Of a stretch of 64,000 nucleotides of DNA, positions 22,735 through 46,692 are shown piece by piece. Below the pieces are notes generated by a model. The model made no database searches. It worked only from the letters and a program-made list of their open reading frames with translations, and was not told the DNA's origin. The translations under genes were made by a program, and so were the position numbers. Numbering within the stretch: the first letter of the stretch is position 1; each line of letters begins with the position of its first letter. This DNA comes from Xylogone sp. PMI_703. Lineage: Eukaryota; Ascomycota; Leotiomycetes. The DNA lies in assembly GCA_021399445.1 (NCBI GenBank), contig JAJTUQ010000003.1, forward strand, positions 2,170,001-2,234,000, in the 5' to 3' direction.

Positions 22735-25700
22735 TTAGTAACAGCTTCTACAGTACAAGTCCTTACAAGCATGAACTTCTCTACTCTTGATAAGCGCCAC
22801 CTCCCCGTCTTTAGGAAATAGTAAAGTCCCATCCGCAAGCATGGTGCTGAGACGAAGAGCCTCACCACTTAACCAGTCTCTTGGTATAAAATAATGTTTT
22901 CGGAGGATATTTTCCCCGAGCAATGTTCTTTGCTGCCAAGTACATACCCAATATTTCTTATCTATGAAAACAAGCTTTCGCTGTGGCAGAACGCAAAGTG
23001 GCACATTTATTTGCGACTGAACTTCTATTGGAATTTCAATAATTGGGACTGTGTGGACTCTATTCTGCTCGATTCGATCAAAAGACTTGCTCTCAAAGAT
23101 GACTGTATGCTGACGTCGGTTAGGAAGTTCGCACGAATGCTGGAGGATGATATATAATTTGTCAGGGGATATGATCAAACGATTTATCTCCCCAGTCATG
23201 TTCTTTCCCGCTGAGCGGGATCTGAACTCGTCGCCAAGGTTACCGGCTGTGTCATCCAATGCAGGAGTAGATGTAGTTTCTGGGTACGCCAAAGTGGCCA
23301 CTTCAGAAAAGTCATCCCATCTGTAAGCCTTAATGCAGCCCACCTCAAAAGATAGTAGGAAGTTTGGGTTAGATGGGTGGTTTATCCATTTCCTCGCCGG
23401 TGACTCCAGTGAAATATCGATGGTTCCGATAAGCTCTTTCGTTTCCACGGACCATATCATCGCTGACGTCTGTGTTGCTGAGGTTTGAATCCAGGAAAAT
23501 AACTCTTTCGAGCTAGCGCTTAATACTATCTGTAATATGTTCCTCCACATGCTTCCAGTTCGAGGATTAATAGTGCGCTCAGCATTACCATGAATTGCTT
23601 TGTGTAGGTCGGATGACGGGATAAGAGAAGTGATGTGAACTTGCCCCCCTGATGCAAGAATTGCAATATTATGAGCATTTGGCTCTATGTCAATATGCCG
23701 AATCGGGGACTTGGATTGATCTTGCCAGAGATCTACTAGTCCACCTTCCTCATAAACTTGAACTAGACCTGCATCATTTCCAGATACAAAACTTTTCGCT
23801 GAATTTTGTACTCCGAGTACGGTAATCGGGCTGTGAGACCCGCCAGGATTCAGAGCCATTGGTGCCATCATGCCCCCCGTTCCATCTTCCGAATCTGTTA
23901 AATAAATTAGAGCAGGTAACTCCCATATATTACATAACCCCTTGCGTAAGTCATATATCCGGCGAGAGTCGGGACTGAACCCTATGTCAATTATCCTCTC
24001 ATAGATAGGAAACTCATAGAGAAGAGTAAAACTATGAAAATTGTATACTTTTGCTCCTGATTTATCTGCGACTGTAACCAGTTTTCCGTTCGGACTGCAA
24101 GCGATCTGTGGTTTGGCAACAAATCGTTCGGTCATTTCTTGATACACTCCTGTATATGGATTCCATTTAAATACTGTTCCACCTTCATATCGACCTATCA
24201 ACGTGCTTGATTTGGGATGCCATATTACTCGCTCAACCACTGTCCAATTGCTTGGATTTTGATCTCTCATACATTTTGCAACCATTTCAACTGGCTCGAC
24301 TCTCAAGACTGAAAGTGGGAATTTCCTATACCCAACAGCTACGTGCTCTATATCAGCATCGAAAGCAATGCAACTAGGAGTGCCATGCATGGGAAGCAAT
24401 CCTTCAGCGAATGGTAGCCACCCCTCTTCTATATTGTTAAGTGAGACAGACTTTAAAGCACCGATGTCGCATGTCATGATGAGCTTTGAGTCGTCTGTAG
24501 AAAATATCAGATCAATAGCTTTGGTCCTTGCCGGGCGAGGGATTTCGAACAACAAACTCCCCGTCCTAACGTGCCAGATTCTGGTGGCATTAAGGCTAGC
24601 ACATGCAATCATATCACCATTATGGCTGAAGCACATACAGAGCACGTATTCTTTCTGTTCAATTGTCGTTGTTTTCTCAAATGTGGTGGAGTCATATATT
24701 ATGATGTTCTTGGGGGACGGGACAACGGCGAATACGTCACCAGAACAGAGAATAGTTTTAGCAAGAGATCCTGGGGGAAAGTTGACTCTTCCGATGTTGT
24801 CATCCCATATTTGCGAAGATAGGCCACTAACGTTTAAAAGGGTGGAGTCCTTGGCAAACTGCTGAAATATCATGGAACTTCTTGGACAAAATGGTGGGAT
24901 GAGCTTGAAGATTGCTGCCGGGTGGTCCATTAGAACTTCGCTAAATTGGCTCACAATCCTCTTTATGTCCATGGCCCAGGATCCAATAAACTTCAGGTCA
25001 CTAAGCAGTCGAGAAGACGAGTCTCTCGTAAGTAGATGGTCCTTTCTTCGGTGAATATATTTGGCTAGCGACATTGAGGCAGATACCAATTCTTTAATCT
25101 CACCAAGAGTTGCGAGAGTCGATATCCATGCGAGGATAGATTGTTTTCGGAGGAATTCAGTTAAGCAGTCAAAGACTTCTTCAGAATCTGGTGGGCATTG
25201 CTCTAAATGGTAGGCCCATGAGGTGGCTGCGTAGGATAGGAGTGCCCCTTTGAGACTAGTTTGTGAATCAATATACCGTATGCACTTCAAGAATAGAGTC
25301 TCGTGCGCTGACAAAGGATCTATATAGAGAGAAATATCCGGTCTTGTAGTAAGGAAATGAGAAGCAGTTTCGTGCAACACCAACACTTTGGATGACAATG
25401 TGTCAACGATAATGAACTGTCCACATATGCCCATGATCATTCTTCCAAGGTTGAGGGATGGCACTTCAGGTTGGAGAGCTTCGGAAAGCTCATCCATGCC
25501 TAATGGCCGACGGGAGCAGATTACCCATAATAGGATTTTTCTAGCCCAAATTTTGTGAGCGGGTTTCAATGAATTTACCTGGGAGATCTCCATACGTAGA
25601 TACATATCCTCCATTCCGTCTGGTAGTCGTTCCAATACTTCCTCAATTTCTTCTGGTGTGTAGGAATGGAGTATTTCATTCAACGCCATTGTAACCCATA

Positions 25701-27725
25701 GAAAATTGCCATTAGCTTTAGCAAGAACTGTTTTAGCAATTTCATCTTTCGTCTCCAAGTCAACACCTTTCAACAGCTTAATTTCGTGCTCAACGAAAAG
25801 TTTAATATCACGAGTCTCATTTGCAATAGATATTATATCAAGCTGCAAGTCTAATGCAAGCCGATCGAATGCTAGTCTGAGATCAACAGTATCACGGCTG
25901 GCCAAGAGAATCTTGACGGGTATCTGTGACGAGGAGCAGCCTGCTAATATCTCTGCTAATATGCTCGGCGAATCTGCTTCATCCAATGCATCGATAACAA
26001 GATACAACGGACGAGAGACAGGAATCTTGAAGAGTACATCGATGAAAACCCGTCTCCAAATGGTCTTTGCATCCGCTCTCTCTAGTTTCAGTATGGAATT
26101 TTTGATTTCGGCTAGTGCTTTGCAGAATTCAGGCACCTGTTCAGCAGCTTGGAAGGCCAACGATCTTAAACATGTAGCTGGTGATCTCTTCAGCTGATCA
26201 CTGAATCTGAAAAAGAAGTAACAGCATAGCTTGCTCCGTTCTACTATGGTGTTGATGATATAGGTGGTTAAAACTGATTTCCCGGTCCCTGGAGGTGCAC
26301 AAATCCATAGAACACGGGATTCTGTGGGGTCCTGGAGCCATGAGTCGAAGATGTTGTTATCAGTAATCCAGTCACAGGTTCCTAGCCGCCATCGGTCCCT
26401 AAAAAATTTGAAATCCTCAGTTGGTGCTTCTGCAACTCCGAGCATTTCAGTAATTTTGGCGATGTATTCTTTACCTTCGGCTTCAGTCACTTCAGTAGCT
26501 GGAATGTGTCAATATTTAAAATTTGATATCTATGTATGGTGATAACCCACCTTTTCTATGTACATCAGAGACTAAACCCTTGAGCGCATTGCGAACTCTA
26601 ATATAATTCGGATCGTTCGGACTACTGTATTTACAGACAGTGTGATGGTCTGCATTGAGCGGTACCGATACCTCTCCAGGGTAGTTCAAAATAGATGAAT
26701 CCTTGTCCACAATTATCTGAAGAAGGTAAGTATAGTATTTAACTGGGTGGCTAATTTTCACAACTTACTTCTTTTTTTGGTCCAATTGAGGTATGTAGTG
26801 TTTCGTACAAGGAAAATATTTGTAACTTCGGAGCAATGTGACGAAAAAGCTCATTAATGTCTTCTAATGTAGAAGAACCTTTTTCAAGCTCAGATATGTA
26901 CCTTTTAGAAGAGTGGTGAGAAAGAGTCAGAAGCCGACTAAGGATTGGTGCCAGGTTCGATCCTCGATGCGGAGTGGATAAGAATACAATTGACTTAATT
27001 GATGCTATAGTATCTCTGTATGTATCATCATTCTGACCTATAATATAGGCTTTCTTGACAACTAATCCACCCATGGAATGGGCAACAAAAATAATAGGCC
27101 TCTTCGACATACGAGCATCACCGTCGGAGTCATTAGACATAAACTGAACTGCATAGAGCAAATCTTTTGCAAAGTCAGATATTCTCGATATATTCGCAGG
27201 CCCTAAAAAGTCCGCATTGTATCCAAATGTTAGGATTCTAGCAGTCTGGATTACTGGCTCTGAGGGGAGCCATTCCTGTGGCCAGAAAAGGGCTGGATCG
27301 CGATCCTTCGACCATGTTTGGCGGCTTGACCCTCCGAGTCCATGGACAAATATAATATCTAAGGTTGGTAATGCAGTAGGCTCATGGAGGATAGTTAATC
27401 CCAAAGGATCTAGTCTCCTATCTGGAAATTTTGCTCGCTGCTGTGTGAGAACACTCGCGTGCCCCTTGGGCGAGGCGGCTCCTTGCAGTGATTTGCTGGA
27501 CAGTGCGTTCTGTCCTGACGAGCTTCCATTTACAGGAACCATGCACACTTTGTCAGCTCCCGAAATACTCGTGACATTTAGCGTTTCTGGCTCCGGTTCC
27601 GAGGGAGCCTTATTTTTGGACTTTAGAGCCTTGCGTTTGGCAAGAGTCTTTCTGAACTGATGATATTGTTAGGCGGGGTAGACGTTGACATATGAAGATA
27701 CATAGGGTCACCATACGTGTAACAT
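22735..27725 (-). CDS. NLR-type protein: alpha/beta-hydrolase - NACHT - WD-like repeats
   Basis: Fungal NOD-like receptor of about 1608 aa. Exons 27725-27717 (three codons), 27656-26769, 26716-26551 and 26498-22735 join in frame; the tiny first exon is the least certain part, the alternative start being the ATG at 27542. Residues about 75-300: serine-hydrolase fold of the PGAP1/DUF676 kind, with FVHGLGG and the nucleophile Ser197 in VAHSMGG. Residues about 395-600: NACHT NTPase, Walker A APPGTGKS (Lys428) and Walker B LVIDALDEAD. Residues about 940-1550: degenerate beta-propeller repeats (for example FSHNGDMIACAS, FSPDSRRIYDL). Such proteins are known or suspected to act in non-self recognition and programmed cell death. 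The reading frame is intact. Confidence 0.88.
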
Positions 27726-28349
27726 CTATTCAAGAACACATAAACTGTAAGCCTGCAATTGAATAAGACGCTGAAAGCGGAAGAATGCACGGGGGTGTTG
27801 AAACGCAGATGTTAAAGAATGAAGTCTAGCATGTCAACAAGTTCCCATCTTAAGTGGCTGTGTTGTACCAATGGCAAGGCACTCAGGGTTGCGGGCGCTT
27901 ACAGGCATCGCCACGATGCAGAATATCCAATCATGCTCAAGGCGGCAAGTACAAGCCACCGCATGTGACTGCAACAATCTTTTGAAAACTATTAGGAGCC
28001 ACGAGACATACAACAAACAAACAATTATTTTGTAGAAAGTATGAATACCATAGCTGAAATTGGGAATACTTAGAGCTGGTAGTTCACTGGTTCAATTACT
28101 TTGTATTGCTATTTTCAACAAATATGGCGAGGAGCTATTATTTGTATCTTAACTCGCTATCTATTGAACTCAAGTGTCAAGAAAAATGTTAAAAGTAATT
28201 AGCAATTTAGCGTGGATTGGTTATCAGAATTATACTTGAGTTAAAGTGAGCCCAACACTATCTCAGCTTCATGTACTGATATTTGCAAGTACAATCTTGC
28301 TTTCGGTGCCCCTGGGTTTGTGACCCCATGGCTATGTTGGGGGTTCCGG
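27726..28349. other. Intergenic upstream of the NLR
   Basis: No gene recognised; a 60-codon minus ORF at 27834-28016 has no motif. Confidence 0.45.
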
Positions 28350-29106
28350 CAAAGGATACCACAGTTTCCTTTACAAACGTATGTAACGGAGTCAAACTCA
28401 ACCTCATTTCTACAGATAACGGATGTGGGATAGTGGTGTGTGGTCGTATATCGGTGAAGCTTTGGTCAGTCGAAAAGAAGGAGGTGATCAGTTCCCTGCA
28501 AATTCCAGAGGGCATGAAACCGAGGGAATGGATAAATCACCCTAAGAACAGTGATTTATTACTCTTATTCGAAATTAGCTGTATCAAAGTCTATCAAAAA
28601 GCGGATTTAGTTGACATCACAACTCTATCATATTCGAAACCTAGCGGACGCCGCTCGATTGATCTGCTTGACCAGGGGCTCCTACAGATAAAAAGGCTAT
28701 TTACATCTCCCGACGGATCTTACATAATTTTCAAATACTTTCGCCCTTTGTCAAAAGAACACAATAGGCAGCAAACAGTCATCTTCAATAGTAAGTCATT
28801 TGAGCAAACACCGCCAAGGAAATCACGCCAATATTTATTCCGGAAGAGATTCAATCACAAATAGAAATACCTCTCTGTACTCCCAGAACAAAGATTTATT
28901 TTCATTGATAAGAGCTATTGGGTGTGTTCGTGGCAATGGGGCGGGAGAACCGGGAGGAACGAGGTGCAAAGGTACTTTTTCCTGCCGAGGGATTGGCTAA
29001 ACGCAGATTGCCTTGCTTTATGTACGATGCTGAGTGATGGAACACTGCCATGTCTAAAAAATGGAGAGGTTGCAATCATTAGAAGTGATGTTGGGCTAAA
29101 CTTCTA
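28350..29106 (+). pseudogene. Chimeric relic: 3' end of an NmrA gene joined to 3' end of an NLR gene
   Basis: Two pieces abut near 28431. From 28350 to 28431 the minus strand encodes IPHPLSVE..LSLTPL..FV..TVVSF, matching the C-terminal end of the NmrA gene at 29648-30743. From 28432 the plus strand matches the last third of the NLR gene at 22735-27725: LWSVEKKEVI, REWINHPKNS, RQQTVIFNSKSFE, EIQSQIEIPLC, DKSYWVCSWQ, FFLPRDWL, MLSDGTL and GEVAII all have counterparts there. Frame changes occur after KSFE and before DKSYW, and two stops follow TKIYFH, so it is dead. The NLR piece is inverted relative to the intact NLR. Confidence 0.8.
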
Positions 29107-29647: not shown

Positions 29648-30743
29648 TTATAGGCATGGTACCCCTACTATGCCAGTCATGATGACTGATCCGTCTTGAT
29701 CAGCCATACTTGCCATACCAGCTCTCGTCACCGGACTCTTATCTTGCAAGCTTCTCTTTGTGTCAAGTTTTCTGACAAAGGAGACCACAGTCTTGTTCAC
29801 AAACTCAGGTAACGGAGTCAAACTCAGTCCAGTTTCCACAGACAACGGATGTGGGATCTGTATATCAGCGTAGAGACCCCATTCATTGTAGTAATGGTAC
29901 ATCTGATTCAGGTCCTCAAATCCAGAATCAGGTGTTGTAATAAGCCGCGTATCTTTACCAGTGTGCTTCTTCACTTCGTCCACCACGTCCTGCATACTAT
30001 ACATCCCGCTAACGCAATAGAGCGATTTCCCGAGTATTTCTGGACTAGAAGTATACTTTTTCAGTATTGCAGCAACCGATCGTCCAAGATCTCTCTCGAT
30101 CCAAATCATTCCTAATTTGACATCTGGATGTAGAATTGGTTGTGAGATGGTGTAGCCACTACCGTCCTTTCCCATGCAACCGAAGTTGATGAAGTTATCC
30201 ATGAATAATCCTAAATGAAGATCAACGTGGGGTATTTCCTTGTATTTGAGATATTGCGATACGGTGAACTTGTTCTCAACAAGACGAGGACTATTAAACC
30301 GAGCTCCAGTTCGTAACAATGCACTTGGCACCGTTGACCAAATGAATAGCTTCACACCTTGCTCTTTGGCAATATCTGCCATGGCACAACCCTGGCGAGC
30401 CTCTTCAAGAGTATCGTTTTGAATGCTCGGATCGTAGAAGTTAGTGACGGCGTAGACTGCTTCAGCACCTTTAAATGCAGGTATAAGTGTGTCAGGCTTA
30501 GACATATCGGCTTCAACAAGTGTAACATTTGGAAGGGATAATAGTTTCTGCGCAGCAGCGCTTTTGGAATTACGTGTCACAGCACGAATCGAGAATTCTG
30601 GCACTTCGGAGAGCGCTCTAACGACCTATAGAAGACCTGGTTAGTAGAGTTATTAGCTGCTTGATGACGAGACGCCTTACTGCTCCACCTTGGACTCCAG
30701 TAGAGCCCATGACTGTGATAATACGCTTTGAAGTAGAGGCCAT
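29648..30743 (-). CDS. NmrA-like NAD(P)-binding protein
   Basis: Exons 30743-30681 and 30625-29648, joined in phase 0, give 346 aa. The N-terminus is a Rossmann fold with MGSTGVQGGAV, followed after the intron by VVRALSEVPEFSIRAVTRN, the NmrA-family pattern. Family members are redox/NAD(P)-sensing regulators or reductases (NmrA, HSCARG, isoflavone-reductase-like). The central part (FINFGCMGKDGSGYTI, MIWIERDLGRSVAAIL) is typical. The catalytic Tyr-x-x-x-Lys of SDRs is not evident, favouring a sensor or atypical reductase role. Its 3' end has a duplicated fragment at 28350-28431. It is the nearest gene on the left of the peptide cluster, in the same orientation as the next gene, but membership is unproven. 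Confidence 0.82.
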
Positions 30744-31724: not shown

Positions 31725-32852
31725 TTAAAAACAAGCATTCGGTATCCATGCTAACGAAAACTCTTTATCCTCATTTGTTAATATCGGCTCCGACCACTGT
31801 TCCCCTTCAAAGAATATAAACTTATCTAGACTATTGAAACAGTGCTCAATATGCTTATAATCGACATCTCGCGGACAGACATGCTTTCCCGTCTCTCTTG
31901 CCTGCCAGTACCTCCTAAACACCAGAATGCAATGGGCAGGATGATAGAATCTATCTAGTTTGATACCCATTTGGGATGGATGCTCGTAGAATGACTCGTT
32001 GAGATAATCCTTACTTACGCGGATGGCTTCAACTTCTGTATAGCGATTCCTGAACCACTGTTGGTATTTTCGTTCAGTGTCGTCGATAAGGTGGGGAGGG
32101 ACCATTGATGCGTCGTCTAGCCGTACAAACCACTCATCTTTATTGTGCTTGGTTTCGGTAGCCCACTCTGAGAAGCTAATCCAGGGGCGGGTGAACTGAA
32201 GCTGGTATCGGGGTCCTTTGGTACCCTTCAAATCCCAGTGCATCCATGGAGAAATAGGACTTTTTGATTCATGACGTTTGATTGCCGGTATTATTAATGC
32301 CAAGCTCATGAGGACAAGCGTCATTGATGCCACTATGAGAAAACAATTTCGAAGAAAGAAGCGAGCAGATTTCTTTAGATGGCTAGTGGAACTTGCGTCG
32401 CTTTCTTCCAGAGCAAGCCTGTCTTGGAAGGAATTGAAGAAGGATCCAGACGATTCTCCGTTTAGACTCAAGATAGAAACGAGGGAAGTTATCCTACCAC
32501 CCTTTTGATATGCATCGTTGGAGAGAGTATATTGGAAAGTGGTGGAAGACTCTTTGCACTGCTGGAAGAATTTCTTGGCGTATTCAAACCCATCCTCAAA
32601 GGACCACGTGGAAGTCTCAGGGACTTGAGATAGCCAAACACAGAATGTTCTTTGTCCAGCAACCTGAAGAAGTATTTTGCTTCTGACAATGTCAGTGCAG
32701 CCCGTGCAAGCAGCGCTCAGTAGCAAGTCTGCAAGATCTATAGGACCAGTGGGTACTTCGGGATTGGATGAAGATATAACTCGGAAGCTTGGCGATCTAG
32801 GAGTATTGTCTTCTCCAGATATCATACGAAAGAATGGTAGAAACTTCATCAT
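31725..32852 (-). CDS. UstYa-like (double HxxHC) membrane protein with long N-terminal extension
   Basis: Single exon, 375 aa from the ATG at 32852; a second ATG follows directly, and the open frame extends upstream only with non-ATG codons. Two HxxHC motifs, HPAHC (304-308) and HIEHC (334-338), are spaced 30 residues apart as in UstYa/DUF3328 proteins, the copper-dependent peptide oxidases of fungal RiPP pathways. A membrane segment lies at about 170-192 (FLIVASMTLVLMSLALII). The roughly 170 residues before it (LADLLLSAACTGC, VCWLSQ-like and KKFFQQCKESS) are unusual, since UstYa proteins normally have a short cytoplasmic tail. Assignment rests on motif spacing and context. Minus strand, alongside the next UstYa-like gene. 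Confidence 0.65.
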   Translation of the reverse strand: MMKFLPFFRMISGEDNTPRSPSFRVISSSNPEVPTGPIDLADLLLSAACTGCTDIVRSKILLQVAGQRTFCVWLSQVPETSTWSFEDGFEYAKKFFQQCKESSTTFQYTLSNDAYQKGGRITSLVSILSLNGESSGSFFNSFQDRLALEESDASSTSHLKKSARFFLRNCFLIVASMTLVLMSLALIIPAIKRHESKSPISPWMHWDLKGTKGPRYQLQFTRPWISFSEWATETKHNKDEWFVRLDDASMVPPHLIDDTERKYQQWFRNRYTEVEAIRVSKDYLNESFYEHPSQMGIKLDRFYHPAHCILVFRRYWQARETGKHVCPRDVDYKHIEHCFNSLDKFIFFEGEQWSEPILTNEDKEFSLAWIPNACF

Positions 32853-33847
32853 ATAGTTAATTCTAGTTGTGGAGAATTGTCCACTTTGCTGAGACAGCTT
32901 CGAGATGCACAAATTTGGAGCATACAAGCAGAATGGATAATACAATACCAACTCATTTCACAAAATTGTCCATAAGTTATTATTTTCTCTTGTAATTTAA
33001 CGATGTTATTTACCACCGAGAAAGATGTGAGAGTCACCTTCCTTTTTTTCGATAGCCGCAGGCAGTATTGTTGGTATCAGAAGTACTTTACGTCGCCTGC
33101 AGAACCGGACTACGGCCGCAGTGAGGCGTAAGTAATAAGCCGATCCAATGGGATTGGCTTTCCTGTAGTTTGACGACAGCACAACAGCATACATTATCGG
33201 TGCATGTTCACTATTCACCAACACCCGGAAGCATTTGGAATATGGAATATGCACGTCGTATTGGAAACCATTGCGTCGTAAATGATAGTCTCAAGTCCTA
33301 GTGCAAGGATGTTGCAACGAAGACCAATTATGCCCAGGTTTGAGCTAGAGACTGGCCTTACCGTGATCCCCCGCTGAGATGTGTTCTTCTCTTTGGTACT
33401 CCACCAATTGTATACCACGGCCAAAACGTCAAGCTTTGCATGGATACTATACTTTGCCTTCTGCTTTAGTTCATTGCACTCACTCACTCACTCAAGGTAA
33501 ACCGGTTTAGGTCACGTCATGTTGGCATATCCTACAGGTAACAAATTTCAATTGAGTCCCTAGATTGAGCCTATCCCACTTCAAGATATGCTTGTCTAAT
33601 GGTTTAGATTCCTAACCAGAGCGTATTCTGCGGCAAAGAGTTGATACATCGACTATACTGTTCCGCATGCAACCACATGCAGATACTGCAATCTGAGACG
33701 CGTATACTTCTTTGCCAAAATCGTTAGCTCAGCAATCTAAACTATTAACAGGGCACAACTAGCTACTGAGCCGACAATTGTAAGATATTGTCGAGTATTG
33801 AGAAAGCTATGAGAGCATAACGGGGGATTATTCTAAATGCTAAACTC
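32853..33847. other. Intergenic between two UstYa-like genes
   Basis: Small minus ORFs at 33006-33254 and 33215-33487 show no motif. A CACT microsatellite sits at 33477-33494. No supported gene. Confidence 0.45.
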
Positions 33848-34582
33848 TCATTCCTCATTCGTGTTGAGTGCAACCCCAGAAACAGTTCCATATCCGGGCT
33901 TTTGCAAGATCTCTCCACAGTGCTTAATATGGTGCTCAGTATCAGATCTCGGTTCAACTATCTTTCCAGTGAGCTTCGTCCGAAACTGCTTCCTCCAGTA
34001 AAAGATACAATGTATAGTATGCCAATGTTCATTCATATGGACCCGAGCAGATGAATTATCACCCATAGCGGCAACTTCATTAGGGTCTACTTCTATAGTA
34101 TGACGAGCATCTGCATAGTACACCCACGTCCCATTTGGCCCATTTCCTGCGGTGTTGAACTCAGCAGTAAGGTCATCGTCTCGGCAGTGCTCAGGTAGCC
34201 ATGCCATAGCTAAAGAGTCGAATTTGCAACCTCTCGAGATCGCTTCTGCAACTGAATCTCCGCAATCGCATCCTTGGAGAATTTGTGAATGTGCGCGAAT
34301 GTCATAATTCGTGGTAATCCGCGTGAAAATGCTGAAGAGGCCCCAGAATGCAAGTGAGAATAAGGTGATGTCTTTAAGAAGTTTAATACACGGGGATGAA
34401 TAGAATGGACTAGATCCTTTGCGCAAAGGCTTAGAATCGTCTATGCTTAAGAAGTGTTTCCCTCTCAGAATTGTTGTTTTCAACCGAGAAGATTGCGAGG
34501 TATCACCTTCAAGGAGCTCGTCATCAGAGCTCTCTTGATCGATTCTTTGATTCCAACTTATCAGCTTAGATTCGACGATCAT
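33848..34582 (-). CDS. UstYa-like (double HxxHC) membrane protein
   Basis: Single exon, 244 aa. Type II membrane topology: polar N-terminus, hydrophobic segment at about residues 68-86 (DITLFSLAFWGLFSIFTRI), then a lumenal domain with CGDSVAEAISRGCKFDSLAMAWLPEHC, a Cys-rich entry motif shared with the gene at 35257-35982. Two HxxHC motifs follow: HTIHC (188-192) and HIKHC (218-222), separated by an Arg-rich YWRKQFR stretch. In UstYa enzymes the paired HxxHC residues are needed for activity and probably bind copper. Transcribed divergently from 35257-35982 across a 674-bp shared promoter, which fits co-regulation. The first Cys motif sets it apart from canonical UstYa, so it may be a distinct clade. 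Confidence 0.72.
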   Translation of the reverse strand: MIVESKLISWNQRIDQESSDDELLEGDTSQSSRLKTTILRGKHFLSIDDSKPLRKGSSPFYSSPCIKLLKDITLFSLAFWGLFSIFTRITTNYDIRAHSQILQGCDCGDSVAEAISRGCKFDSLAMAWLPEHCRDDDLTAEFNTAGNGPNGTWVYYADARHTIEVDPNEVAAMGDNSSARVHMNEHWHTIHCIFYWRKQFRTKLTGKIVEPRSDTEHHIKHCGEILQKPGYGTVSGVALNTNEE

Positions 34583-35256
34583 GAACAGTTATTATGAATA
34601 TCTCTTACCTGCTGTATCTATTCTCCATGTCATAGAATATTCCTGGCTCTGATTAATACTCGTGAGGATTATTTTAAATGGTGGATTGAATATCGATCTA
34701 GGCCGAAGTGCTCTGCGAGAGTCAGGCTGAAGATGAAAATGCTATTGAAAATGACACAATGACATGTTCCACATTGTTAGTCAACCAGGGAGAGTCCACG
34801 ACGGCCGAGATTCAGGATCATTAGTCGTATGTAACCTAACTAATGCACAAGTGTGGCGTCTATGTCAATATATGATAGTCTCCCCGAGGAGAGATATAAA
34901 CTAATACTTTCGGAGTTGGCTCACAAATCAAATACCTTGATCTGTGGTCATACCGACCAACTTCTACCAACTGCATTGCAGCACCGCTTGATTTAACCGG
35001 CAGGAATTGGCTACACTAGTAAGGTTGCTATACCGATACATTCTTGCCGTTGAAGCAATGTCTTAGGCGTAGATACGTTGGCGTGAAAATTGCCACTAAG
35101 AAGCCCACTTACGTTACTACCTGCCAAAATCGAGAAGACCGTCATTTTATGACATTGGGAGCTTTGAATCTTCAACTTTGATCACACTCCGAGACGTCGA
35201 CGATATCTTTAAACTCTGATTCTGGGGTGAAATTTTATTTCTTCTGAAAACTTTTC
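34583..35256. other. Bidirectional promoter region of two UstYa-like genes
   Basis: 674 bp between divergent starts at 34582 and 35257. No ORF seen; no clear palindromic site identified by eye. Confidence 0.45.
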
Positions 35257-35982
35257 ATGGATTCAAAGCAAGATTACACTCAGCTGCCTTCGAGCGCCGA
35301 AGCTCTTGAAGATGTAGAGCTCGAGAAACAAGAATGGGACGAGGACCTCATCCAGACGCAGAGGCCAGAGAGACGTTCCTGGCTGACCTACTTTTTGGTT
35401 CTCCTTTGCGGCATACTTCTCGGCGTTATTATACCCACTGCCTCTAGACCTCTCATCAACTCAATATCTCGAGTCATCGAGAAATCTCACAAGGAAGCTC
35501 CACAAGTACAACACAGTGTCGGCGTGGATACTGGATTTGTTATTAGCCCGGAGACTGGAGAGGCAAAATGCGGCAATAGCTGGCAGGATGCCAAACGATT
35601 GGGATGCCATTTCGACATTATGGCCTCAAGATGGTATTCAGATGAGTGTTACAATGGAGAGGTCTTGAGCGAGATGTTGAAAGAAGTCGACTTCGAATGG
35701 TATGCGGATCCTCAACATACTCAGCCAGTGTCGAAGGATTTAGCATTATCAGGAGAGTTTGATGAGCTCTGGCCTCTATACGACTACCACATCATGCATT
35801 GCCTGTATCTGTGGCGAAGATTACATTCAGCCGTCATCGGGCATCGACAATTGGACGATGATGTTTACAGTTATGGGCATACGGTTCATTGCACACGGCT
35901 GATCATGAACTGGCATAAGGAGAAGAATACAACCACAATTCAGACTTCTGGGATTCCATTCTGCAGGAATGATCCACTCTGA
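35257..35982 (+). CDS. UstYa-like (double HxxHC) membrane protein
   Basis: Single exon, 241 aa. Acidic cytoplasmic N-terminus of about 45 residues, a membrane segment at about 43-63 (LTYFLVLLCGILLGVIIP), then a lumenal domain. CGNSWQDAKRLGCHFDIMAS and WYSDEC parallel the Cys-rich motif of the divergent neighbour at 33848-34582. HIMHC (178-182) and HTVHC (208-212) have the same 30-residue spacing as in that neighbour, with YLWRRLH between them. Predicted role: oxidative modification of peptide in the secretory pathway, by analogy with UstYa/UstYb. It lies 965 bp upstream of, and in the same direction as, the repeat precursor gene. Confidence 0.72.
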   Translation: MDSKQDYTQLPSSAEALEDVELEKQEWDEDLIQTQRPERRSWLTYFLVLLCGILLGVIIPTASRPLINSISRVIEKSHKEAPQVQHSVGVDTGFVISPETGEAKCGNSWQDAKRLGCHFDIMASRWYSDECYNGEVLSEMLKEVDFEWYADPQHTQPVSKDLALSGEFDELWPLYDYHIMHCLYLWRRLHSAVIGHRQLDDDVYSYGHTVHCTRLIMNWHKEKNTTTIQTSGIPFCRNDPL

Positions 35983-36947
35983 GAAGCGCGGAATGAGAAC
36001 TTGTAGTATTAAATGCAATGTTATTACTAGATTAGGAACTTGTCAATCTAACATCTATGTGATTGGTTATTAGTTAGATACCTGTTAATTATAGTGTTAT
36101 GTTGGAGTGTATAAAGGAGTCCATCATAGTCACGTCACGTAGTCTAGGTAGCACGCCTAAACAGCCTAAGGAAGGCTAGAATTAAACGGTATACCTCCGT
36201 ACGCGTATCTGCGTGAGGCTACACACCGCCATCCCCTGCATAACGATCGTGGAGGATGCGATAGGGAATAACTAGTGGGGCGGGGTACTTGCACGGTACG
36301 TACATGTACGTGCCGCATGATCCTTAGAACTATTCCAACGCCGTTCCTAATCTGGATGTTCCGGCTGGTGTCAGAGAGTAACTCACAAAGCTGAGGGCTG
36401 GAGTAATGAAGCAATTATCATGATAATACATTGACTATTCGCAATTTATACCTTATTTAGGAAGCCGTATCAATGTCATTGACATGTACGTGGTATCTGG
36501 TTGCCCCCCTCGACAGCAGTTCGGCGATACACATCCAACACCAACACCAACATTATAGCTGTACATGCAGCTTTCTGCATATTACATCAATACACCATAC
36601 CACCTTCTACATGAAGGCAAGCTTGGTAGATGCTCAAGTTTGTCGGAAGAAAGCTTCCTCAGCTTCAGTCATGAGTGATCCATCTTTACGACTGAGTGCA
36701 CTGTATACCGTATGCAAGCACCGTAAATCTCAATCTACATGAATATTGCTCATTCGTAAAACGTTCGATTTACCCGTCTCTGTAATTGTATCATTTCGAT
36801 TATTTGTACCGTGACCAACTCATATTCCCCATCAGATATCTCACATAAGTTCCTTTACCTCGCCTTTCCAATTACCATTACTACTTTCAGTACTCATCTC
36901 CCTATTCAAATTTATCGAAATCAGTCCGGACTTCTAAGTTAATCAAT
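35983..36947. other. Upstream region of the repeat-precursor gene
   Basis: No gene seen (plus ORF 36473-36742 has no motif). A perfect 14-bp palindrome is at 36298-36311. The last 110 bp before the ATG are CT-rich (CTCATCTCCCTATTC), typical of a strongly expressed fungal promoter. Confidence 0.5.
36298..36311. promoter_or_regulatory. Perfect 14-bp palindrome ACGTACATGTACGT
   Basis: Self-complementary 14-mer embedded in a longer imperfect inverted repeat (36291-36315) between a UstYa-like gene and the precursor gene, 637 bp before the precursor ATG. Could be an operator for a dimeric regulator; no direct evidence. Confidence 0.3.
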
Positions 36948-37343
36948 ATGAAATATCTTAGCGTTCTCTTCCTCTCAGCTGTGCTTGTATCGCAGGCGTG
37001 GTCTCTCCCTCGCCCATATACCGCTGCTTTACAGCAGCGCAGCAGCGGTACAGCTGTCGGTCCAGTAGCAGAAGAAGTTGTTGAGACTTATGATAAACGT
37101 AGCAGTGGCACAGCTGTAGGCCCTGTGGCGGAAGAGGTTGTTGAGACTTACGACAAACGCAGCAGTGGGACTGCAGTCGGCCCAGTAGCTGAGGAAGTTG
37201 TCGAGACATATGATAAGCGCAGCAGCGGAACAGCTGTTGGTCCAGTAGCAGAGGAGGTGGTGGAAAACTATGATAAACGCAGTAGTGGTACTGCTGTGGG
37301 TCCTGTAGCTGAGGAGGTTGTTGAGACTTACGACCGCAAGTGA
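36948..37343 (+). CDS. Kex2-processed repeat precursor (candidate dikaritin-type RiPP)
   Basis: 131 aa, single exon. Residues 1-19 are a signal peptide ending QAWS; a short propeptide LPRPYTAALQQR follows. The rest is five copies of SSGTAVGPVAEEVVETYD, each bounded by Lys-Arg (Gln-Arg before the first, Arg-Lys and stop after the last). Only the fourth copy differs, with Asn for Thr before Tyr. Kex2 in the Golgi would cut after each KR to release near-identical 18-mers carrying the C-terminal KR, which carboxypeptidases would trim. This is the layout of UstA/PhomA-type precursors whose Tyr-containing cores are cyclised by UstYa oxidases. The single Tyr at repeat position 17 is the natural cross-link candidate. 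Four double-HxxHC proteins surround it. I do not recognise the core. Confidence 0.85.
   Translation: MKYLSVLFLSAVLVSQAWSLPRPYTAALQQRSSGTAVGPVAEEVVETYDKRSSGTAVGPVAEEVVETYDKRSSGTAVGPVAEEVVETYDKRSSGTAVGPVAEEVVENYDKRSSGTAVGPVAEEVVETYDRK
37041..37340 (+). repeat. Five in-frame 60-bp repeats of the precursor
   Basis: Units at 37041-37100, 37101-37160, 37161-37220, 37221-37280 and 37281-37340, each exactly 20 codons. Units differ at many third positions (for example GGT/GGC/GGG/GGA for the first Gly) yet are almost identical in protein, so the peptide is conserved while the DNA has drifted. Confidence 0.95.
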
Positions 37344-37900
37344 TATGTGAGATTCCCTCAAGCCAAAACTAACTCCTTGTTAATTTAAAGATAGCATATT
37401 ATCTGAGAGAGGATTTCACTATCTGTAGAGGATGTGGAAAGGTATTGAAGACTCCTAGGTTCTCTTATTGGAGAAAATCAAGAGCTATTGGATGTTCGGG
37501 GGAGCTTTTCAGTCGGCAACGTTGGAAGTTGTTATTTAGTACTCATAAAATGAATTTATGAATTCAGTCTTCAAGGTTACTTTGACTCAAGTGATAACAT
37601 TTGAACGTGTCCATTGTTTAATTGCGAGAATAATCTTAATGCATTCGTACGTGTTTATAGTTTGCTCTCTGAAAGTCGCGAAAATAGTATTTAGAGGCAG
37701 AGCCACTCAGACTTCTTATTTAAATACACATTTATACTTGGTACTTCCCCAATACTGGGGACAATGTAAGTAAGTTCGTACACTGCGATGCTAGTAGTGT
37801 GAAAGCTAAATATTCTAATATTTCTTGAAGCTTTAGTATAGGAACATCCCCCAAAAGAGTATCTACCATTACCTAAAAAGCCTGCACTCATAATATATAA
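37344..37900. other. Convergent intergenic region
   Basis: 3' ends of the precursor and the canonical UstYa gene face each other across 557 bp. No ORF of interest. Confidence 0.5.
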
Positions 37901-38896
37901 TTATTCTTTCGTTTCTTCTTTCCCCTCAGGATTCATTACCGCAAGTGGATCAAAGGATTGGGGAAGGAGCTTATCACTCAAATCCCAAATCGCCCTCTCA
38001 TTCGCCATTTCAGTCAACGCATCAAAGTCCACGCAAGAATGTGTCTGACCCCACCCAGTGCTCTTTGTCCATGATCCTGTCTCACCTTCAAGAGTAGTAT
38101 CCGCTGAACATAGAATGCTCTGGCGGAGGTATTCCACACAATGGGCTCTATGGTCAACTTTCTGTTCCTCTAGGGCTGCCCACTCGGCTCGTGACACACC
38201 AAGGGCAGTCGTCAAAATCGACTGAATCAATATTAGTATATATGGGCAGCATCTTATATGTTCACTGAAGGCCTTACCAAGCAGTGTAACTGATGATAGA
38301 CCGCCAAAATGTACCCTTCATAGAAATCTCCTTCCTCAAGGACATCGTGCATTTTGAATGGAGGATGGAGAACTTCAAAGTCCTCATGCTCCTTGACTTT
38401 GACATAACCTCGCCCTTCTGTATGAAATAATTAATTACATTGATGACAGAGAGTGGTATATGTCACATACTAGGAAAGAGTTGCTGCCAGTTTCTATGGA
38501 TCTCCTTCATTCTAGTCGCATTACGCATCATCTCGATATCGTTGTATACGATGTCAGGGCCAAAGCCTGCTGTATTTCCAATTATAACCGATTTTCGAGG
38601 GACTAAATACATCAGTAAAAGGACGGAAGGAAGTTCTGATATCTGCAAGACTCACGCGTAGGGCCATATCTTGGAGGCCCCGTGTTTTTGTGTGGCAGAT
38701 GCACAGAACCAGTTGAAAATAATGTTATGAGCGTTACCACTAAAGAAACTTCGAAAAGGACACGCAAATTTAGGAGTCTGCGAACAATATTTCTTGATCT
38801 CGGTTGATTCTCTTTACTCAAGAACTCGGTGGACTCGGAGGACTCTACATCCTCATACAGTGGCTCATTCCACTTCTCTGGCATGTTTTCTTTCAT
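37901..38896 (-). CDS. UstYa family (DUF3328) peptide oxidase, canonical
   Basis: Exons 38896-38656, 38602-38471, 38417-38278 and 38221-37901 give 277 aa. The start is the first ATG of the frame. Residues 1-42 are a charged cytoplasmic tail, about 46-65 a membrane segment (LFEVSLVVTLITLFSTG), then the DUF3328 domain: WQQLFP, YILAVYHQLHCL with HQLHC (166-170) and VDHRAHCVEYLRQSILCSAD with HRAHC (195-199), then GWGQTHSCVDFDAL near the end, the typical family closing segment. Intron 3 lies directly after the first HxxHC, a common UstYa gene position. In ustiloxin-type pathways these membrane oxidases form ether or C-C cross-links in the Kex2-released peptide. Convergent with the precursor gene. 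Confidence 0.9.
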
Positions 38897-39599
38897 GTCT
38901 AAACAACGATGAAGTTCTTGGTATCTCACCGTGATCTAAACTGGAACTAATGAATATAGAATTGTCACTATAATTGTAGACTGGAAACTTTCAAGGCTCT
39001 CATAACCAAGGAAAGTAGTAACCAAGGAAAGCAGTAGGTAGGGGATTGGGAAGCAGACAGAGAGGGGAATTCCTCACGCAACCACACGAGGTATATTGGT
39101 TAGCCCGGCCAGTTGGTTCATGACCAGGATTTGTGCATATCAGCGCTACCCGTAGAAGCATTGATACGATTTACGAAAGTATTACCCACGCCGCATATAC
39201 CGTAATATGCAGTATTTACCGTTATCGATGAGGGAAAGCGATGATTGGCCATCACTGTGGACTAGGCTTTATTCCGTGCGGACGTTTCCGATTTGGTACT
39301 TCCGCGATACCCAACACCACTCTCAATGCCCTTAGCCTGAGTCTTGAGGATCCCGCCATTTATTCACCCTGCCACAATAGAAAAGGATTGCGATAAAAAG
39401 TCGTTTCTCCAATCATTAGATGCAGATATTACTAAGGTTATTATGTTATTAATACTTGCTTAAATTTATTGTATTCAAAGGGTTAATAGCTTAAACTAGA
39501 TTTACGTACTTTTACTTTTATATTATTTGAAAGTCTTTCAATTTCTTGTCACCTCTCTCGGATGTCTAATAGAAGATTCGCTCGGTGTTTTCTGACTGC
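38897..39599. other. Intergenic, no gene seen
   Basis: AT-rich from 39400 to 39560; no coding signal. Confidence 0.5.
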
Positions 39600-41280
39600 T
39601 TATACTGTCTCTACCTGATCAACTTCGGCCCCGTCCTTGGCTTTGTCCACATGGACGACTCCCACATGCGCATCATTTCCTTCGAAGATAATGGCGAGCT
39701 CTTCCAATGTCGGGCCCTTGGTCTCTGGGTACAGAAAATAAACGACCAGTACCTCAACGACAAGCCATGCGACGTAAACAATATAAAGCCTCCAGGTCAT
39801 CGCGTCTAGTGCGATGGGGTTAACGTATTGGTTGAAAGCACTGGCAGCGCTGCCCATCAATTGGCTAATAGCCACACCCTTTGCTCGGTATATGAAGGGG
39901 AAAATCTCAGTGACGTAAACATATGTCAACGGGTGCTGGAAGTTATAGAAGATGGGGTAGATGAAGAGGAACGTAACGGCGCCAACAGCCCCGCTGTTGC
40001 TACCATTGAGAGCAAAAGCAGCGGAGCAGCCAGTTAGAGCGGCAAACGTGAAGGTTAAGCCGATGAACGATGTCAAAAACTGAGTGCGTCGCCGCATGAC
40101 GTTGGCCAGGAAAGCCCCGATAACACTGGCGACTAAGTCAACCACCTCCTTGCCCAAGTTAAGCTGTTGCTGGCGCAGATTCGACGTGATGCCGATTGAT
40201 TTTAGGATGGGAACGAGATAGTAACCAGTCAGGCCGTTGCCGGACCACTGCGCGAAGACTCCGACACAGCATGTCAAGAACGTTCGCCAGCGGTTAGCTC
40301 TGTTATTAACCATTTCGAACCAAGAGTTCTTTGATGACTCCGCCTCCAAACGAATTGTTTCGCGGATCTGAGCAAACTCAGCGAGTGCGAACGGATCGTC
40401 GCGGTCCCCCTCAGCGTGGTATTTCACGAGAACAGCAAAGGCTTCTTCGGATCGGTCGCGAGATAGCAGCCATCGTGGCGACTCGGGCACGAACCAGATA
40501 AATGAGAGCTGGAGGACCGAGGGGATCATTTGAAGCAGAGACGGCAGTCGCCAGGCCCAGTTGCTTTCCATGGAGAATGTGCCTAAGGTGATACCGGCCG
40601 CAATAATACCCCCGACGTACCACGAGTCATTGAAGAGACCAGTTATCACAGCGCGTTCCTTGGGATAAGCAAGTTCAGCGATGAGCTGAGATGCCCCGTT
40701 CGTCGCAAAGGCGATGCCCGAGCCCAAGATGAATCGTGACACCAGGAACATGGCAACTATTCCATCATATGTCAGTCGATCATCCAGTCAAGCGTCAGTT
40801 AAGGGAATTTATTAAAAGATCACTCACGATCGACGGCCGCGGTTTGTATTGTGACTCCGATCAAAACGAGGATACTGCCCAGGATAATACTTGGCTTTCG
40901 TCCAAAACGATCATTCATGAATGGTACTATGGGAATGGCGATGATAGTCCCAAAGGAGAATGCAGCGACCATGACACCAAGAATGTCGCCTTGGGGATTG
41001 TTGAAGTCTATCTCGGCTCATTAACGTCTCTTCGGAATGCTGACCAAAAGTAATACATACAGTTCTGCCATGGCTTTACAGCTTGTAGGCCGTTCAAGAC
41101 GCTGCCATCATAGCCTGCTGTCATCGAGACACCAAGAGCAGATGGTACCAGGAACAGGTACAGGTTTCGAAGATTACGCTTCCGATACCAAGGTGTCTTA
41201 TCTTGGTTCACAAGCTGGGTGAGGTCGGACAATGCCGCCACCTCTCCGGCGTGGACATGATGATCCTCTTTCTTGTCCAT
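39600..41280 (-). CDS. MFS sugar-porter family transporter
   Basis: Exons 41280-41061, 41007-40828 and 40756-39600 give 518 aa with twelve predicted membrane segments. Sugar-porter signatures: GYDGSVLNGLQ in TM1, RFGRKP in the loop 2-3 region, PESPRWLLSRDR at the end of TM6 and PETKGPTLEE after TM12. The sequence is close in style to fungal lactose/hexose permeases, which import sugars by proton symport at the plasma membrane. As the first gene right of the UstYa gene it could belong to the peptide cluster, but sugar porters are rarely the exporter in RiPP clusters, so membership is doubtful. An AAT microsatellite lies in its 5' leader. Confidence 0.88.
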
Positions 41281-44120: not shown

Positions 44121-46020
44121 TTAATCCATAGACTTCTCATCTAAAACGTCGACCACTCCGTTATAACGATCAACAATGATCTTAGATCTGCGGATAGAAT
44201 GTTTGACTGGTGACGGGGACGTAAAGATCTCGGTCATTTCCTCCAGCTAATGCGTGTCAGAAATTGTAATTACTAAATTAACAGATAACGATATGATAAA
44301 ACTCACAGTTCGGTTCTTTGTCTCCACGAAAAAGAAATAGATGACTAGGAAAGCGAATGTATCCCAGAATATGAACAGAAAATAATATTTCCAGCCACTA
44401 TCAAAATGAGTTATCAGAATAGCATCTCTTCGATATGGCAGCAGGACTTACGCGTCTGTAAATGCAATACCCGTGACAAAGGTATTATAGAAACCCGCAA
44501 TATTGGTCCAGAAAGTATGGAACGCCATTCCCTTTGCCCTGTTCTCGTACGCTAGAACTTCTACGCAGTAAAGCCCTTGAAGTGGTGTCCACCCAGCTGC
44601 AAAGACAAATGCGAAAATAAATATCATAGCCACTTCAGCTTTTGCTTGTGAGCTACTAATGGCTACCAGTTTACCAGTTGCTGATGTAGTTAGGTTAGTA
44701 GCATTCAAGGCAGTAATAATAGCAAATAGGATGACGATTAGCCCTGTGGAGACCAAGAGCTGAGGTCTCCGGCCCCATTTATCTGTAAAATATGCCCCAA
44801 TAAGAGCCCCGATAAAAGAAACCACAGCATTGATGCCCTGCAGCAGTAAAACAAGGTGAGCATTTGTTATACCTGCACCGGCAAGCATCTGAGGATAATA
44901 ATACGAAACCGCGCCATTCCCTGCCCACTGTCCAAAGAAACTAATACCAACAGTGAGAGCAGTACGGTATCTGGATTCTCGAGAGTTGAATAAGCCTCTA
45001 TAATCCCACCAGCGCTTATCGGACCCAGTGATTGAAATCTCAGCAAGCATTTCATTGAATTCAAGCTGGACAATGGGCGAGTTACGATCTCCTTCCCCAT
45101 GGTATTCAGCCATTACATTCAAGGCATCTTCGTGCCGGTCGTTCGCCATGAGCCAGCGAGGAGTCTTGATACGTTAGGCTTAACTCAATATCAGACAGTA
45201 TGCAGAAGACATACCTCTGGAAAAAAGAAGATACTTGCGCCAACAATTCCGGGCAGAACCATCTGGATCCAAATGGGGATCCTCCAGGAATTAGTTCCCG
45301 CGATTGTCGAAGTACCATACGGAATAAAGGTTCCGGGAATGCTTCCAACAAAGTAGAATGTATTATAAAATCCCGTGAGTTTTCCACGCCATGTAGGATG
45401 TGCCATTTCAGAGACATATGGTAAGCCAGATGAAGGTCCAAGGGCCGCACCGACACCAAGCAAGAAGCGGCCGATCATAAATGCTGCCAAATTTGTAGCT
45501 GTAGCTTGCACTATGGTACCTATGAAGATGACGACGACACTGATGAACATTCCCATACGGCGACCTATCAACTCGCATGTAAGAATGAGTATTATTAGGC
45601 AAAACGATCCGTGTTACCTCTGAAGTCTGCCAAGGGCCCAGCAATGAATGCGCCGACCAGACTGCCTATAGTGTATATCGCATAGACAATTCCAGTGGAT
45701 GGGGTACCAGCCGTCAGAGAAAAGCCAAAGTATGATCGATATTGGACATAAGAGTTGATGCTGCCCATCAAGCTTCCATCATAACCGCTGACAGCAGCAA
45801 GGAGACTGGAAATTCCTACAAAGTAATACAGCTGGTAGGGGTTAACTTTGATGCGAACTATCCGCGAATAAAAGCTTACCTTGAACATGCCCTTGGTGAA
45901 CGGAGACGGCTTCTGCAGCGCTTCAGCAGTAGCGAGAGCAACATTCTGAACGTGGAGCACTTGCTGATGCTTCTCATCAACCCCTGCCGCCGTATCTTCT
46001 ATCTCGTTACTTCCCGCCAT
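44121..46020 (-). CDS. MFS sugar-porter family transporter (D-amino-acid gene group)
   Basis: Six exons: 46020-45880, 45831-45618, 45564-45215, 45164-44452, 44397-44307 and 44246-44121, giving 544 aa and twelve membrane segments. Signatures are GYDGSLMGSIN (TM1), GRRMG, GRFLLGVGAALG, PETPRWLMANDRHEDAL (after TM6, across intron 3), KWGRRP and ETKNRTLEEM. Intron 1 is 48 bp and stop-free, so an unspliced form with 16 extra residues is possible; splicing restores the usual KLYYFVG join. Substrate is not predictable; its neighbours suggest it may import the compound handled by the fusion enzyme, although sugar porters usually carry sugars. Confidence 0.85.
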
Positions 46021-46692
46021 AATACGAGGTGGACGTTCAGAATATATACTGAAGATGAATGTTCATATTAGAATTGGGCTGAGCTCCACCAGCGAAGGGA
46101 GATGACCGTGAAATATCAATTATGCCTACTTTAACTTCCCCTCATTTCCCCCTCATTATCCTTATCTCGGCGTTATGATCCCCGGCCTTACTCTCGTATT
46201 TGTGCACTATGTTGTGCTGAAAAGGGAAAACGAGCGACTAACCAATCAAGATTTTCATTTAGAAGTTCTCGAACCGGCGGAATGGGCGAATTGAAGGACG
46301 GGGCTTGAGAACAAATACTCTATTGCTCTGTCAGGGGTTGTATTATTGCCCAATGTGGAAGGTAAAATAGGCCTGTACCATTTCGCAGAAGGTGCCAGTT
46401 ACCCAGCTCACTTCCACAGAATTATGATCGCAGCCTGCGGTATAATATGACCGTTGCAGTTGCTACAGTAGACCAACAACAACTGTCTTGCATATTTAAA
46501 GAGAACTTGAGACCAGATTAGGAAATGGAACAAATCTGCGAACGTTAATTCCGATCCTCAGTTGGGCAAGTCTAAATCTGTCGTTAAATTAAAGGTTGAG
46601 AACGATCAGCCACTGCCACTACCTTCCGCGTGCCAATATCCCAAATAAGTTCCGCTCATGATACAGATACACCAATAATCAACCCGTCCGTT
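46021..46692. other. MFS promoter region
   Basis: No gene. Contains CTTCCGCG at 46623-46630, the reverse complement of a CGGAAG half-site like the palindrome at 48876-48890. Confidence 0.4.

Follow-up and report, generated by a model that had tools for sequence, protein, structure and literature searches.

A candidate minimal dikaritin-like gene cluster for an apparently undescribed repeat peptide in Xylogone sp. PMI_703

We analysed a 64,000-nucleotide stretch of the Xylogone sp. PMI_703 genome (contig JAJTUQ010000003.1, positions 2,170,001 to 2,234,000; hereafter the window), in which a repeat precursor gene is surrounded by four genes for membrane proteins with paired HxxHC motifs, designated P1 to P4. 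The locus is probably a minimal dikaritin-like cluster for a ribosomally synthesised and post-translationally modified peptide (RiPP), in which UstYa-type copper enzymes would oxidise, and perhaps cross-link, the peptide. Judged from the encoded proteins, the product of the gene set is very probably a secreted peptide that carries chemical modifications. A precursor-plus-UstYa-type RiPP cluster had been proposed here in an earlier note on this DNA, and that proposal was supported and further strengthened by the pairing of the precursor with P3 in two Penicillium gene models.

A repeat precursor among double-HxxHC proteins

The precursor gene (36948-37343, forward strand) is a single open frame of 131 amino acids. 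Its N-terminus is hydrophobic in the 15-residue windows from starts 1-6; a putative signal peptide (residues 1-19, 36948-37004, forward strand, end estimated) was judged from this hydrophobicity alone, and the N-terminus resembles those of the relatives described below. Five forward-strand units of 20 residues follow (37041-37100, 37101-37160, 37161-37220, 37221-37280 and 37281-37340), starting at residues 32, 52, 72, 92 and 112. Their consensus is SSGTAVGPVAEEVV[E][TN]YD, followed by KR in units 1-4 and by RK and the stop in unit 5. Four of the five units carry SSGTAVGPVAEEVVETYD, and unit 4 is an ENYD form in which T to N is the sole residue change. This is the layout of a secreted dikaritin precursor with Kex2-separated repeats, and the frame, the hydrophobic N-terminus and the unit arrangement agree with the secreted 131-residue protein of five near-identical Lys-Arg-separated units described earlier. 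The array is the sole long tandem repeat of the window, the two others spanning just 34 and 25 bases. The gene was single-copy in a genome search, where the one extra match (E 0.04) lay antisense within the same gene.

Comparison of the ten pairs of units shows a residue change in only 4 of 180 codon pairs, whereas 59% of comparable synonymous codons differ. The difference expected for independent draws is 0.55 ± 0.04 with pooled codons and 0.69 ± 0.035 with uniform codons. Because synonymous codons differ about as often as independent draws would and the residues are nearly constant, the repeat is translated and maintained for its peptide. No Pfam match to MF_alpha or MF_alpha_N was obtained at E ≤ 1, as would mark an alpha-pheromone, and EA/EP (STE13) spacers were not found after KR in the units. 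Matches to UPF0181 (23.8 bits, cut-off 23.5), Transposase_24 and DUF6239 were judged to be chance hits on an Ala/Glu-rich repeat.

All four double-HxxHC genes lie within ~5.2 kb of the precursor, on both sides of it. P1 (31725-32852, reverse strand) encodes 375 amino acids; P2 (33848-34582, reverse strand; 244 amino acids) and P3 (35257-35982, forward strand; 241 amino acids) are intronless. P4 (37901-38896, reverse strand; 266 amino acids) is a canonical UstYa/DUF3328 gene of four manually spliced exons (38896-38656, 38569-38471, 38417-38278 and 38221-37901), separated by introns of 86, 53 and 56 bases that have GT-AG borders. All five cluster genes are open, P4 once spliced. The two HxxHC motifs are 30 residues apart in P1, P2 and P3 and 29 in P4. 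Each protein has a hydrophobic segment, which is weak in P2; apart from this weakness, the four membrane-anchored proteins are as the earlier note had them. In P1-P3, both motifs lie downstream of the membrane segment, as in UstYa proteins in the wide sense. Among the remaining window open reading frames of at least 30 amino acids, none carries a pair of HxxHC motifs. The curated cut-off of the Pfam UstYa/DUF3328 profile (PF11807) is 25 bits, which P4 passed with 92 bits and P1 barely, with 26.0 bits; DUF3328 genes thus adjoin the precursor.

P3 as a partner of the precursor and its kinship to UstYa

A single-sequence protein search with the precursor alone gave no match at E ≤ 0.1. The P3 search returned 38 proteins, the window's own included, with relatives in Rasamsonia emersonii (69%), Oculimacula yallundae, Aspergillus, Penicillium, Venturia and Colletotrichum. 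One of these, P0028 of Penicillium glandicola, is a gene model in which the P3 homologue runs into a repeat precursor with seven copies of AMATEPVAEEAVADY[GD]; this part shares 58 identities with the window precursor over 131 columns. A two-sequence profile built from the window and P0028 precursors, with 7992 candidates scored, then retrieved P0039, P0040 and P0041. Among the matches listed at E ≤ 10 there were five rows, three of them true relatives; P0042 and P0043 (E about 5) were left out as apparently unrelated proteins rich in EE. P0041 (P. vulpinum) is another such fused gene model, with a P3 homologue leading into a precursor of one unit. The five precursors have in common the signal-peptide pattern and a core PVAEE[AV][VI]xxY[DGS], in which PVAEE and Y are invariant.

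In the window, 965 bases separate P3 from the precursor on the identical strand. The two P3-into-precursor gene models therefore imply the same order, strand and short spacing in Penicillium. Because both models fuse them, P3 and the precursor are taken as a conserved pair, and the Pfam-invisible P3 is, on these comparisons, a conserved partner of the precursor. This pairing is our best functional evidence.

We then considered the kinship of P1-P3 to UstYa. The P2 search reached P3 at 1.7e-5, the P3 search reached P2 at 1.6e-6, and the P1 search reached P2 at 1e-5. At E ≤ 0.1, the Pfam UstYa profile matched 4 of 26 P3-type proteins (best 0.015) and 10 of 24 P2/P3-type proteins of the fungus's own genome (best 1.1e-5). 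In the opposite direction, a P2/P3-family profile (alignment A5) was run against 1290 frames, with reversed frames as decoys. It matched P1 (6.5e-8), two UstYa proteins of another locus, L004 (5.9e-6 and 4.3e-5), and P4 (5e-5); the best decoy scored 0.079, and further UstYa proteins, at 0.027-0.039, were near that noise. The A5 score is driven largely by the HxxHC motif, whose invariance within A5 is by construction, the rows having been chosen for two motifs. In the P3-type alignment, which takes in 25 of the 37 other P3 matches, both HxxHC motifs are invariant in 26 of 26 rows. P1-P3 thus appear detectably homologous to UstYa. We take P2 and P3 as distant members of the UstYa superfamily that have chiefly the motif in common with it.

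The predicted P3 structure places a helix (residues 43-62) at the membrane segment, and each HxxHC motif falls within a helix (177-195 and 206-217). This model resembles the layout of CctR, a DUF3328 enzyme with an N-terminal tail, one membrane helix and a lumenal helical HxxHC(x)nHxxHC domain (PMC12435403). Each CctR monomer holds two coppers; the enzyme depends on O2 and Cu(I), requires both HxxHC motifs and loses activity once the motif His and Cys are changed (PMC12435403). P2 and P3 differ from CctR, as far as it is described there, in a conserved Cys segment, CGxSxxEAxxxGCxFD, before the HxxHC helices, and the CctR substrate is a non-ribosomal peptide, unlike the ribosomal precursor here.

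A probable modified peptide and its alternatives

In the proposed pathway, the precursor would enter the secretory pathway through its signal peptide, and a Kex2-type protease would cut after KR to give five copies of SSGTAVGPVAEEVVETYD; the genome holds a kexin-type P-domain gene (one P_proprotein match, C19:7268746). Oxidation of the lumenal peptide would then fall to at least one of the HxxHC proteins, most probably beginning with P3, and would take place at a copper site of paired His/Cys. From the chemistry of the family, this would most probably happen at the invariant Tyr near the C-terminus, through a Tyr cross-link or some other oxidation of a side chain, and general exopeptidases may trim the peptide ends. 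The calculated masses are 1808.8316 for SSGTAVGPVAEEVVETYD, 1821.8268 for the ENYD form and 2093.0276 for the KR-extended form, and each cross-link would lower the mass by 2.0157 and each hydroxyl raise it by 15.995. By analogy, the usual guess for the product would be a secreted bioactive or competition peptide.

The locus shares with the dikaritins (ustiloxin, phomopsin, asperipin-2a and victorin, and also the epichloecyclins) a signal peptide, Kex2-separated Tyr-containing repeats and DUF3328/UstYa genes beside the precursor. It departs from them in that the window has no tyrosinase or S41 match and in that two of the four HxxHC proteins fall outside the Pfam cut-off. To our knowledge, PVAEE...Y is not among the dikaritin cores. 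The window precursor is also like the Kex2-processed repeat proteins (KEPs) in being secreted and in having Kex2 sites and near-identical repeats.

The older definition of a dikaritin cluster comprises five genes, and its tyrosinase, methyltransferase and peptidase genes were not found here. None of the 13 tyrosinase matches and none of the 5 S41 peptidase matches of the genome fell inside the window, and no methyltransferase family was found among 35 window proteins and frames, the set covered by the Pfam scan. All three absences had been noted earlier, and they held within these scopes. Later clusters are said to be without one or more of the five genes. Asperipin-2a has one DUF3328 protein and a cluster said to be without a peptidase gene, and in PMC7329392 tyrosinase is named as needed for ustiloxins and phomopsins only. 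Since the asperipin-2a cluster is small and the need for tyrosinase is limited in this way, the small gene set is no obstacle.

Several results weigh against a UstYa-type RiPP cluster. P2 (16.9 bits) and P3 (no Pfam match) fail the PF11807 cut-off. In profile-profile alignment by hhalign with UstYa, represented by four sequences, both HxxHC motifs were in register, with weak probabilities of 45% and 31%. The predicted structures were of modest (P3, mean pLDDT, a per-residue model confidence score, 65.6) or poor and unusable quality (P2, 51.1). A Foldseek search of the P3 model against the PDB gave 18 matches at E ≤ 10 and none at E ≤ 0.001, and when the P3 family and P4 were searched by sequence against the PDB, no match reached E ≤ 1. 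The Penicillium adjacency, furthermore, is read from fused gene models rather than from DNA. Because PF11807 is barely passed by P1, missed by P2 and unmatched by P3, the non-canonical proteins appear to be distant relatives of DUF3328, not plain members.

The precursor might instead release unmodified linear peptides acting as a signal, at the surface or as effectors, with the HxxHC genes serving another substrate or being chance neighbours. Such precursors have been described as unmodified (PMC7099791), and in the KEP survey, which lists 838 types, DUF3328 neighbours accompany just 22% of repeat precursors (1758 of 7878), most being without (PMC7329392). However, two Penicillium gene models keep P3 and the precursor together, four double-HxxHC genes ring the precursor, and neither a pheromone domain in the protein nor EA/EP spacers in its units were found, which makes this explanation improbable. 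That the cluster is decaying or silent and yields no product would be more improbable still by a wide margin, as all five genes are open and the repeat peptide is conserved amid scrambled synonymous codons.

Within the UstYa-type RiPP cluster that we favour, the peptide may be oxidised without being cyclised, by hydroxylation or desaturation. This is a sub-case of the favoured explanation rather than an addition to it, and we regard it as somewhat unlikely. CctR, as characterised in PMC12435403, is a hydroxylase, and the window lacks a tyrosinase match. On the other hand, Tyr is invariant across all five precursors and, according to PMC7329392, occurs in 65.6% of repeats with DUF3328 neighbours vs 38.2% of those without. 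The cyclic products named there are closed through Tyr: in ustiloxins, phomopsins and asperipin-2a, the core is cyclised via an ether to Tyr (PMC7329392).

As to novelty, three long words of the repeat were not found in a literature search, and PVAEE was not found in the related literature sampled, a sampling short of a full absence test. The main texts of PMC6339444, PMC7329392, PMC7099791 and PMC9632046 do not contain the core word VAEE. The core peptide, which the earlier note did not recognise, therefore remained without a counterpart in the literature searched. Because DUF3328-flanked repeat precursors are known and these core words were not found, the peptide family appears undescribed, while the kind of system is known. 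Nine dikaritin clusters are reported in Venturia inaequalis (PMC9632046), and this species also bears a P3 homologue.

The special point of the locus is that the conserved partner enzyme, as identified by sequence comparison, is from a divergent HxxHC class that the DUF3328 profile misses. This suggests that RiPP mining with that profile alone misses the enzyme most tightly tied to the precursor. Testing can start from a defined precursor, its conserved partner enzyme and core residues flagged by conservation.

Related loci in the genome and the limits of the cluster

The 50.1-Mb genome contains 108 PF11807 exon matches. The P2 and P3 searches combined gave 42 places, themselves included, one of which is part of a P1 paralogue. 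Among the P2-search rows, 38 of 40 were free of internal stops, and 28 of the 30 loci L011-L040 held a double-HxxHC frame, a figure unbiased by row choice. With the window's two excluded, 30 of 40 P2/P3-type genes have a PF11807 match no more than 10 kb away; the null expectation was a mean of 1.0 by circular shift (maximum 12 in 1000) and 3.2 by 200-kb jitter (maximum 9 in 1000). The two match lists have zero overlaps, and the partner is 1-10 kb away for 28 of the 40. Merging gave 55 loci: 18 mixed, 31 UstYa-only and 6 P2/P3-only. This co-location offers a direct way of searching for further clusters.

Repeat precursors were sought with a detector requiring at least three similar KR/RR units within one open frame. 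The scan took in 353,841 bases (overlaps included) from the window and 60 loci, with flanks of ~6.5 kb for eight UstYa-only loci and one mixed locus, in part for another mixed locus, and of ~1.5 kb otherwise. Besides the window gene, it found three precursors, all in mixed loci. L020 has a secreted precursor of 11 DFAEPLLGE[AED]VSKR-type units (L020:2850-3404, C1 ~1,010,570-1,011,124, forward strand). L040 has a AETEILGDNDSYTLSPKR precursor, clipped by the locus end, that adjoins UstYa and P2/P3-type genes (L040:1-378, C21 ~5,392,708-5,393,085, reverse strand). L043 has PQYRNADWKR units with EA/EP spacers (L043:2545-2823, C1 ~8,783,333-8,783,611, reverse strand). Zero repeat precursors were found in the eight UstYa-only loci with ~6.5-kb flanks. 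In this small and unevenly covered sample, the confinement of precursors to mixed loci is a pointer only.

We tentatively propose, at somewhat less than even odds, that the intronless double-HxxHC class (~40 genes here, largely missed by Pfam) provides many fungal repeat peptides with maturation enzymes of their own, with P3 and PVAEE...Y as one pair across Eurotiales and beyond. If this is true, a share of the repeat precursors listed without a DUF3328 neighbour would be modified RiPPs.

Some further features of these loci were observed. The L043 repeat is pheromone-like in style, with a UstYa match ~3.7 kb away. In the window, L020, L040 and L043 precursors, synonymous codons between units differ nearly as much as independent draws would, as though identity at the DNA level were being avoided. 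Elsewhere, tyrosinase matches (5 of 13 rows) lie in or beside UstYa loci at C1:8096533-8102896, C19:6466760-6467457 and C5:319853, and these loci are closer in layout to the classical dikaritin cluster. In P1, ~165 residues without a Pfam match precede the hydrophobic segment, an unusual architecture for a UstYa-type protein. A paralogue at C20:733515-734570 aligns across residues 33-375, and a second one (C12:7719393) lies inside a mixed locus; the long N-terminal part, retained in the C20 paralogue, is therefore real.

Adjoining P4 is a sugar-transporter-family gene (39600-41280, reverse strand) whose membership in the cluster is doubtful. From the interval of 31725-41280 drawn earlier, we kept 31725-38896; the transporter has no shown link, and we see no reason for extending the cluster further. 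Among 30 further window frames, 13 were unmatched in Pfam and the rest were ordinary neighbours. Rfam (gathering threshold) and tRNA scans gave no matches. The neighbours include a GH10 xylanase with CBM1, short-chain dehydrogenases, a metallo-beta-lactamase fold protein, an NmrA-like protein (29648-30625), a second sugar transporter (44448-46062), ankyrin repeats, a D-serine dehydratase-like protein and a HAD hydrolase. An NPHP3_N/WD40-type gene (22738-26508) is followed by a PGAP1/DUF676-type hydrolase frame (26754-27668) and by a frame (28280-28864) that by eye is like the end of a WD region. Together, 22735-28864 is possibly one NOD-like receptor (NLR)-like gene with a fragment of a second copy.

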